64,000 bases of DNA from Euzebya pacifica (GTDB taxonomy: Bacteria; Actinomycetota; Nitriliruptoria; Euzebyales; Euzebyaceae), in the NCBI RefSeq assembly GCF_003344865.1, contig NZ_CP031165.1, positions 3,105,910 to 3,169,909 on the forward strand, in the 5' to 3' direction. The notes below the pieces were generated by a model, which saw only the letters and a program-made list of their open reading frames with translations, did no database searches and was not told the origin of the DNA. A program made the position numbers and the translations under genes. This document shows positions 23,419 through 26,710 of the stretch, one piece after another. The first letter of the stretch is position 1, and each line of letters opens with the position of its first letter.

Positions 23419-23591
23419 CCACCGCAGGCCAGCAGGGCCGCACCATCAGGCGTCTCGCCACCGCCGTGGACCAGCACCAGCCGCAGCCCGGGATGCCGCT
23501 GCAGCACCCAGCTCGGGCCAGGTGACCAACCGCGGTGGCGGTTCTGCAGTGCAGCCGATTTCCTGCGTCGAAACCGGGAAGACTATTCGGC

Positions 23592-23614
23592 TAACCTTAT
23601 CCATGATAAGGTTA
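23592..23614. promoter_or_regulatory. Perfect palindrome over the promoter of the AAA ATPase gene
   Basis: TAACCTTATC at 23592-23601 and GATAAGGTTA at 23605-23614 are exact inverse complements around the spacer CAT. The right arm contains TAAGGT (23607-23612), which sits six bases before the GTG start at 23619 and fits a -10 box of a leaderless transcript. A protein bound to this site would block the promoter. The A+T-rich site stands out from its surroundings. Confidence 0.75.
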
Positions 23615-23618
23615 ACGT

Positions 23619-24860
23619 GTGCGTTCGACCCTCAACAACCCCTTCGTTCCCGGATCCGACACGGTTCCCGAAGTGTGGGCAGGCCGTGGCGAGGAGATCA
23701 GCGACTTCCACCGCCAGGTGCGTCCCCGACGGCTCGCGGGCGCATACGAGCGAGGCCGCGTGCTCATCGGCGAGCCGGGCATCGGCAAGTCAGTCCTCGC
23801 CTCCCGCATTGCCGCAGAGGCCAGGGAGGCGGGCGACCTGGTCCTGCCCAGCCTGCGCATCCCGCGTGGCGGCGATCCGATCGCGTTGTTGGCGGGGGTC
23901 GTGGCAGATGCCGTGTCCGCGTACTCCCTGGGGGAGCGGGTGGGCTCCATGGCAACCGGACTGCTGGACCGCATCACCGCCATCAGGGCAGGCGTCACCG
24001 TCACGCTGCAGGGGGCTCCGGCCGGGGTTCCCCACCGCGAGCTGACGCTCGCCCTGTCCGCCCTCGCACGCACCGCGATGGACGACGGCAGGCTGCTGGT
24101 CGTCCACATCGACGAGGTGCAGAACGTCGACCGGACCGAGCACATGTCCCAGCTGCTCGTGGCGCTCGGCGACGTCATGGCCGAGACGGCAGAGGGAACG
24201 GACGCGGCCGGGAACCCGCACGAGCGCCACCTGCCCGTTGCCGTCACGCTCACCGGGCTGTGGAGCTTCGTGGACGGCGCCACACGGGCAGCTGGTGCGA
24301 CGTTCGCCAGGCGGTTCAAGGCCTACCACCTCGGACCGCTGGAGGACGTGGACATCCGCACGGCCCTCGCGCCGTTCACCAGCGATGGCTGGCCGATCCT
24401 GACCGACGACGGTCCTGCAGTCGTGACCGCCAGCGCCGATGCGGTCCAGATGCTCCTCGAGGCGGTGTGTGGCGACCCCTTCCTGTTCCAGCTCGTCGGC
24501 CAGGCCGCGTGGAACGCCAGCACCGGCCCGGTGATCGATCGAGCCGACGTCGCCGCAGGCATACGCGAGGTCGCCACGGAGATGACCCACCACGCCGAAC
24601 GAACACTCGAGCGCCTGCCCCGAGCCGAACGCGATCTGCTCGACGCGCTGTTGTCGCTGCCGGGGGAGCAGCGGACCCTCACGGCCGCAGGTCGCGAGCT
24701 CGGCAAGACCCCACAGCAGGTCGCCACCACGGCCAAACGCCTGGAGATGCGGTCGATCATCCGCCGGGGCCGTCCCATCGCCGTGACGTCGCGCGTGACG
24801 GAGGCGCTGATCGGCGGACGGTGGCCAACGGCCCCGGACGAGGACGCCCGGGGCCGTTGA
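23619..24860 (+). CDS. Orphan AAA ATPase with C-terminal winged helix
   Basis: A 413-residue ATP-binding protein. Walker A is GEPGIGKS (residues 51-58) and Walker B is LLVVHIDEVQ with Asp165-Glu166. The region around 245-260 (VAVTLTGLWSFVDG, TFARRFKAYHLGPLEDVDI) resembles the sensor part of Orc1/Cdc6- and archaeal-type STAND-like ATPases. The last 80 residues (LERLPRAERDLLDALLSLPGEQ and QQVATTAKRLEMRSIIRR, each a separate segment) look like a DNA-binding winged helix. The start GTG at 23619 lies four bases from the end of a perfect palindrome. There is no ribosome binding site. The gene stands alone. It could regulate its own promoter. No pathway can be assigned. Confidence 0.75.
   Translation: MRSTLNNPFVPGSDTVPEVWAGRGEEISDFHRQVRPRRLAGAYERGRVLIGEPGIGKSVLASRIAAEAREAGDLVLPSLRIPRGGDPIALLAGVVADAVSAYSLGERVGSMATGLLDRITAIRAGVTVTLQGAPAGVPHRELTLALSALARTAMDDGRLLVVHIDEVQNVDRTEHMSQLLVALGDVMAETAEGTDAAGNPHERHLPVAVTLTGLWSFVDGATRAAGATFARRFKAYHLGPLEDVDIRTALAPFTSDGWPILTDDGPAVVTASADAVQMLLEAVCGDPFLFQLVGQAAWNASTGPVIDRADVAAGIREVATEMTHHAERTLERLPRAERDLLDALLSLPGEQRTLTAAGRELGKTPQQVATTAKRLEMRSIIRRGRPIAVTSRVTEALIGGRWPTAPDEDARGR
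24826..24859. terminator. Terminator hairpin at the end of the AAA ATPase gene
   Basis: CAACGGCCCCGG at 24826-24837 and CCGGGGCCGTTG at 24848-24859 form a perfect 12-bp stem with a 10-base loop. The right arm overlaps the stop codon (24858-24860). The next gene is convergent and starts its stop codon at 24872, so the hairpin can act in both directions. Confidence 0.8.
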
Positions 24861-26131: not shown

Positions 26132-26710
26132 TCAGTTCTGCGCCAGCCCGGAGATGAGATCCGGGTGGGTCCAGGTTGGCCATTCCGTTGCGCTGGCCGG
26201 TCTGCCGTGGTGGAAGACCGCGACGAGATCTGGGCCCGTGCGGTGGTTGGCGTAGAACGACGCGATGGGTACACGGTGTGCCGCCTGTGCGACGAGCCCC
26301 CACAAACGGTCGTGTCGCTGCCGGATCTTGTCCTCGGGGACGTCGTGACCGCCGGCGCGGACGCGGTGCGCGACGCGGGCGACGGAGAGATCCGGTGGAA
26401 CCATGACGACGTGGAGGCGGATGTCGTAGCCGGCCGCGTCTGCCCGCTCGATGAGGTCAAGCTTGGAGGGGTGGGAGAAGACGGTCTCGGCGATGAACGG
26501 CTGCCCTCGGGCGATGAGGGTCTCGCGGATGCGACTGGCCATGGCTGCAGCCTCGTAGGCATGGGCCTGCTGGTCGTCGGGCCAGCGCTCGGCGGCGATG
26601 ACGTCAGCGTTGACGAACGGGACGCCTGGTCGCATTGGCGCCAGCGTGAAGCGCACGAACGTGCTCTTGCCGGCGCCGTTGGGGCCGACGACCAAGTCGA
26701 GCCGACTCAC
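26132..26710 (-). CDS. Zeta toxin-like kinase
   Basis: A 192-residue P-loop protein. Walker A is GPNGAGKST at residues 9-17. The strand FVNADVIAAERW and the later FIAETVFSHPSKLDLIERA match the zeta-toxin pattern, in which the loop after Walker A holds the catalytic Asp. Zeta toxins phosphorylate UDP-N-acetylglucosamine; related small kinases act on other substrates. The GTG start at 26710 overlaps the stop codon of the antitoxin-like gene (GTGA). The protein is intact and about the size of chromosomal PezT-like enzymes without extra domains. Toxicity has not been shown and cannot be read from the sequence. Confidence 0.8.
   Translation of the reverse strand: MSRLDLVVGPNGAGKSTFVRFTLAPMRPGVPFVNADVIAAERWPDDQQAHAYEAAAMASRIRETLIARGQPFIAETVFSHPSKLDLIERADAAGYDIRLHVVMVPPDLSVARVAHRVRAGGHDVPEDKIRQRHDRLWGLVAQAAHRVPIASFYANHRTGPDLVAVFHHGRPASATEWPTWTHPDLISGLAQN

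Follow-up and report, generated by a model that had tools for sequence, protein, structure and literature searches.

A candidate self-addressed operator at the start of a solitary STAND/ORC-like ATPase gene in Euzebya pacifica

Several described systems resemble, each in part, the gene analyzed here. The archaeal STAND-type AAA+ ATPases SSO1545 and PABY2304 have the same whole-length fold as that predicted for the Euzebya pacifica protein, at 12–14% identity. Classic autorepressors, such as those of the MarR family, carry an operator over their own −10 box. The Euzebya gene is like them in its operator-like repeat over its own −10 box and in its MarR-type winged helix, but differs in having an ATPase domain, no co-regulated neighbor that we could find and no second site in the genome. 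Archaeal Orc1/Cdc6 proteins combine an AAA+ module with a winged helix, as does the predicted fold of the Euzebya protein; unlike them, the Euzebya protein fails the orc1/cdc6 model TIGR02928, and its repeats overlap the promoter and start. In haloarchaea, boxes linked to and particular to the individual gene tend to accompany each orc/cdc6 gene (PMC3528665), the closest analogy for a private address of the kind described below. Finally, IniR of mycobacteria is a transcription regulator with an ATPase domain likened to SSO1545 and a DNA-binding C-terminus; it differs from the Euzebya protein in its length (818 aa), MalT-like sensor, SdiA-like DNA-binding domain and targeting of another operon (PMC5760070). 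No description of this family with private repeats was found in the open-licence PubMed Central literature. Fold and autorepression are of known kinds; a solitary ATPase with private addresses throughout its family appears to be undescribed in the literature searched.

The gene lies in a 64-kb stretch of the Euzebya pacifica genome (hereafter, the window), with the following features in window coordinates.

23590..23601, minus strand: distal putative operator unit GCTAACCTTATC, reverse complement GATAAGGTTAGC, from unit comparison with relatives
23592..23614, no strand assigned: perfect 10+3+10 palindrome TAACCTTATC-CAT-GATAAGGTTA, from exact arm match
23605..23616, plus strand: proximal putative operator unit GATAAGGTTAAC, from unit comparison with relatives
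23607..23612, plus strand: TAAGGT, putative −10 box (TAnnnT) of a putative leaderless promoter, with the gap seen in relatives
23619..24860, plus strand: AAA_16 ATPase/winged-helix gene with GTG start, 413 aa, from open reading frame, domain and fold
23769..23792, plus strand: Walker A motif GEPGIGKS, residues 51–58, with G54, G56 and K57 invariant
24615..24821, plus strand: C-terminal winged helix, residues about 333–401, from model secondary structure, a MarR match and a weak MarR_2 match

The initial annotation had proposed an exact 10+3+10 palindrome with a −10 box inside its right arm. On inspection, the arms TAACCTTATC and GATAAGGTTA are identical across the spacer CAT (23592–23614), and TAAGGT (23607–23612) is followed by six bases (23613–23618) and then by the GTG at 23619; a short frame begins at another GTG (23617) that overlaps it. 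Across the 64-kb window the palindrome is matched once with up to three mismatches, and 100 shuffles gave 0 matches. Comparison of sequences suggests that it is better read as two inverted 12-bp units, GCTAACCTTATC-CAT-GATAAGGTTAAC (23590–23616), whose centers are 15 bp apart. Both units are quasi-palindromic, and their common form across relatives is GRTAAnnTTAYC, with the core TAAnnTTA. The palindrome is real, but what it represents is a conserved unit, specific to one clade and present here in two copies, rather than a one-off. The position of TAAGGT six bases before the GTG has the geometry of a leaderless promoter, the promoter itself being predicted. By sequence, then, an operator-like repeat overlaps the gene's own predicted promoter.

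The initial annotation had also assigned to the product an ATPase and a likely DNA-binding domain; the comparisons support an ATPase with a winged-helix fold, which would probably bind DNA. The protein scores 40.4 bits against Pfam AAA_16 (PF13191; gathering cut-off, 32.6), with a weak MarR_2 match in the C-terminal part. Seven residues (G54, G56, K57, D165, E166, G285 and P287) are invariant in 21/21 aligned members, and we take them to represent the Walker A, Walker B and GxP motifs of STAND/SSO1545-like proteins. An AlphaFold model built with seven sequences was of middling quality (pLDDT 73, pTM 0.53), so that the fold assignment is just moderately sure; the predicted fold comprises an AAA+ core, a lid and a winged helix, which together with Walker A, Walker B and GxP are the marks of the STAND/SSO1545-like type. 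Foldseek placed Cdc6/Orc1 chains, including DNA-bound ones, at the top by E-value (1fnn, E 9.7e-08). A second structure comparison gave SSO1545 (2fna, Z 17.0 over 314 residues), PABY2304 (2qen, Z 16.1 over 318 residues), ORC2 (1w5t, Z 15.0) and 2qby (Z 12.3), and matched residues 333–400 to the MarR-family winged helix 3nqo (Z 10.3, 2.5 Å, 68 residues). A sequence search of solved structures returned weak matches alone (E 0.08 and above). Sensor repeats or an effector domain are common in larger STAND proteins and are not required for the SSO1545 type; no domain beyond AAA_16 and the winged helix was found in the Pfam search of the 413 aa, and 2fna itself has 352 residues. Among the more variable stretches in near relatives is the one where the putative recognition helix begins (0.56 vs a mean of 0.78), and residues 259–272 and 105–117 vary as much or more.

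The initial annotation had called for a genome-wide search for further copies of the palindrome. In the two contigs of the Euzebya pacifica genome (5,799,875 + 571,580 bases; 6.37 Mb), the inner 19 bases ACCTTATCNNNGATAAGGT occur at a single place with up to two mismatches. Allowing one mismatch at most, GATAAGGTTARC, the half unit, is present genome-wide solely as the two halves of the 23590–23616 site. The general two-unit pattern likewise has a single place among four genomes of the genus, which is the window site. Other array types behave similarly. The element GGTACTGTGACGTC of locus L033 (up to one mismatch) has three copies in genome G162, every one before L033, one copy in G258, ahead of L032, and in G000 two copies before the deleted remnant L012 plus one mismatched copy elsewhere; it was not found anywhere in G247 at the same threshold. 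The L104/L105 array unit TTAGCAAAACTTGCAAA has three copies each in G490 and G482, solely ahead of that gene. For each of the three array types that were checked across whole genomes, the unit is thus essentially confined to its own gene. Paralogues within the Euzebya pacifica genome have upstream elements that differ from one another. Since many relatives have a different element of their own at this position, each copy of the ATPase probably controls itself alone.

A first scan for relatives gave six loci in Curtobacterium, Clavibacter and Actinomyces, with 42–45% identity over the best segment, and all six carry a 12–16 bp element just 5' of the start codon, as a near-identical pair or one copy. 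The initial annotation had named the upstream regions of orthologues as the place where its proposal could fail; there, the unit precedes most near relatives, with copies matched within the gene. An exact TAAnnTTA lies within 100 bp upstream of 21/43 family genes, and 31/43 have it with up to one mismatch, against 0/1195 (exact) and 9/1195 (up to one mismatch) for control 100-bp windows from the same loci; shuffled upstreams averaged 0.55 of 43 and never exceeded 3. These 43 are the genes whose match reaches the start; they include the fragment L012 beside its orthologue L033 and omit L007 (the same as L008), L042, L043, L014 and L052. In a 93-row tree, the unit occurs in 22/33 rows of one supported clade (99/93) and in 1/60 rows outside it, suggesting that it marks one clade of the family. 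Two lineages inside this clade, L010/L015 and L032/L033, use other repeats, which counts against the autorepressor reading set out below.

Arrangement and matching of the units were compared gene by gene. In L001–L005 and L077 they stand 27–29 bp apart, vs 15 bp in the window, some direct and some inverted; in L001–L006, L013 and L077, the unit is placed with TAnnnT ending 6–7 nt ahead of the start codon. A single exact unit is present in L006 and likewise in L013, which at 66% identity is the nearest relative, so a pair of units is not essential. Pairwise footprints (L001/L002, L003/L004 and L010/L015) have the units kept and the spacers scrambled, and between L001 and L002 the same central base has changed in both arms. 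The central dinucleotide varies from gene to gene, yet in 8/9 two-unit genes both units, read in either orientation, share it (permutation p 0.0005). Within these nine genes, the 12-mers of one gene also agree beyond chance (p 0.00005).

Unit conservation alone could partly reflect conservation of the promoter, and the unit does include TAAnnT, a −10 match. It is conceivable on that ground that another regulator uses the site as its operator, or that it is simply an unusual −10 element. We regard this as quite unlikely, since the halves are matched on either side of the center, second copies lie near −40, the central dinucleotide is shared more within genes than between them, the unit is absent elsewhere in the genome and different between paralogues of one genome, and the exact core was met in none of the 1195 control windows.

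We think it probable, with some reserve, that the gene encodes an autorepressor with its own promoter as single target, acting through binding, repression and nucleotide control; these we infer, the last of them from the conserved ATPase. The AAA+ (STAND/ORC-like) ATPase would bind the two GRTAAnnTTAYC copies via its winged helix, probably in dimeric or higher oligomeric form, and the two copies would make binding cooperative. Since one unit copy covers the −10 box of the putative leaderless promoter, bound protein would obstruct RNA polymerase at the gene that encodes it. The nucleotide state of the ATPase domain, or a ligand of it, may then loosen binding and release a burst of protein, and paralogues would drift to different units. 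What the ATPase might do beyond its own promoter is a guess: it could be a stress or invader sensor. Weighing against the autorepressor reading, besides the other repeats of L010/L015 and L032/L033, are the single exact unit of L006 and L013, the 15-bp spacing in the window vs 27–29 bp in six relatives, the variability of residues 259–272, at least as great as that of the recognition-helix region, and the 62/93 family genes that show no repeat at p ≤ 0.01.

The same architecture might instead serve a self-activator or two-way switch, in which the ATPase would oligomerise on the repeats and recruit or remodel RNA polymerase. MalT-like STAND regulators work by activation of that sort, and the predicted model of the Euzebya protein has a STAND-like fold. 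The arrays of L032, L033 and L003–L005, with two or three copies 27–30 bp apart, also extend upstream of the promoter, and in mycobacteria iniBAC is induced by IniR, an ATPase whose domain resembles SSO1545 (PMC5760070). Nevertheless, we hold activation to be unlikely: near relatives have a unit over the −10 box, a position from which an activator would obstruct polymerase, and the window has no upstream copy beyond the pair.

The family extends well beyond the unit-bearing clade. Sampling of the phylum (396 actinobacterial genomes) with a profile of 21 diverse members gave matches at E ≤ 1e-15 in 89/396 genomes, many with several copies; these copy numbers are minimum values, as scoring covered four candidates in each genome. 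Within the class, the family is patchy (19/66 genomes at E ≤ 1e-10). Of the further profile matches, 40 regions were taken for upstream comparison. The gene, first described as an orphan, is indeed solitary, with no partner found among its neighbors, but it belongs to a large family, many members of which have private upstream repeats. Among 93 non-redundant members, the 90-bp upstream sequence contains a significant direct or inverted repeat in 31 at p ≤ 0.01 and in 53 at p ≤ 0.05, compared with 4/93 and 10/93 control stretches, p being the smaller of the direct and inverted tests with 150 shuffles each. As controls, 90-bp windows were placed 300, 500 and 700 bp upstream and the first 93 of them used, which come from about 31 loci. 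As 62/93 genes miss p ≤ 0.01, including a high-GC group (L097, L112, L114 and kin), the upstream-repeat rule is common and not universal.

Repeat types vary among members. L118 has inverted arms touching the ATG, L032 and L033 have triplets with a 28-bp period, and L104, L128, L134 and L136 have tandem arrays. In small-genome Actinobacteria (L104, L105, L128, L094, L111, L134 and L136), iteron-like tandem arrays with periods of about 10–21 bp abut the gene. Across the 93 genes, a distance of exactly 6 or 7 bases between the end of TAnnnT and the start accounts for 32 cases, and each other distance up to 24 bases has fewer than six; start codons of distant members were set by rule. In place of this geometry, a Shine-Dalgarno-like stretch is frequent in the middle clade. 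The 6–7-base distance is that of leaderless promoters; in M. tuberculosis, TANNNT was found centered 7–12 bp upstream of 73% of primary starts (PMC3898074).

The iteron-like arrays of distant members, together with the Cdc6/Orc1 chains that head the Foldseek matches (some of them DNA-bound) and the ORC2 match (Z 15.0), would also suit a bacterial counterpart of the Orc1/Cdc6 initiators, whose repeats mark sites of DNA loading, remodeling or replication instead of, or besides, autoregulation. Haloarchaeal orc/cdc6 genes likewise have gene-adjacent, gene-specific repeats (PMC3528665). Such a role seems highly improbable, however, given that the protein reaches 14.0 bits with TIGR02928, whose cut-off is 181.3, that SSO1545 is nearer in fold than ORC, that family copies are scattered, patchy and sometimes deleted, and that the placing of the repeats goes with the start codon and −10 box. 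For the family as a whole, we put forward only tentatively, as doubtful, that these small, widespread actinobacterial STAND/ORC-like ATPases each have a private, sole-in-genome address at the gene start, with protein and address drifting together, as a counterpart of the Orc1/Cdc6–ORB linkage that would insulate paralogous switches (or DNA-loading sites) from one another.

Identities suggested by the surroundings did not fit. The gene is flanked by an M24 peptidase gene and, on the other strand, a CWB2 gene; with these and unrelated genes as neighbors, a toxin–antitoxin or operon partner was rejected, and no recurrent partner neighbor was found across the family loci, where shared neighbors are near-syntenic pairs or antisense frames. 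A Zeta-toxin/AAA_33-like kinase frame lies near the gene (window 26132–26710, minus strand), with no obvious partner. Assignment to a defense system was rejected, with just a weak P-loop match to mads_8 (E 0.009), as was assignment to phage protein families, with weak P-loop matches alone. Relatives were absent from 72,556 plasmid and 50,697 phage records (tblastn, E ≤ 1e-5) and from viral contigs (31 candidate stretches, 0 relatives); a phage or plasmid replication gene with iterons was rejected on the absence of relatives from these sets.

Family copies are scattered over both contigs (G000), one paralogue being located on contig C2 of the Euzebya pacifica genome. G162 (L063) is syntenic with window 14332–35388 at about 75–88% and lacks the family gene. 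There, the M24 and CWB2 genes are swapped in order and a DUF808 stretch has moved, so the region is locally rearranged; a mobile single gene was accordingly rejected as a reading, the altered local order meaning that the missing gene is no demonstration of insertion. L010 and L015 occupy the same location in two species, and L012 (G000:C1:4033342-4033551) is a remnant of the L033 locus in which the repeat array survives and most of the gene is deleted, with ACG in place of the ATG start codon of intact L033; these copies have thus been inherited and lost. Decay of L010/L015 by internal stops was rejected, as both frames run through to a regular end at 407 aa.

The observation itself holds, and comparison strengthens it. 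If the autorepressor reading is right, it provides a first handle on an abundant family of solitary ATPases in which every gene displays the sequence its protein reads; whether the protein binds DNA, whether nucleotides control it and how its specificity evolves would become testable paralogue by paralogue, and matched changes in protein and site would form a natural series for the drift of winged-helix specificity. It would also raise the question of what purpose is served by an ATPase that controls itself alone.

Two further observations concern the tree and the other end of the gene. The L005 protein of Actinomyces denticolens groups with that of Curtobacterium L006 in a mainly Microbacteriaceae clade, which suggests transfer between families. 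At the 3' end, where the gene converges with its neighbor, an inverted repeat AACGGCCCCGG...CCGGGGCCGTT (window 24827–24858) overlaps the last part of the gene and is likely a shared terminator lacking a T run.
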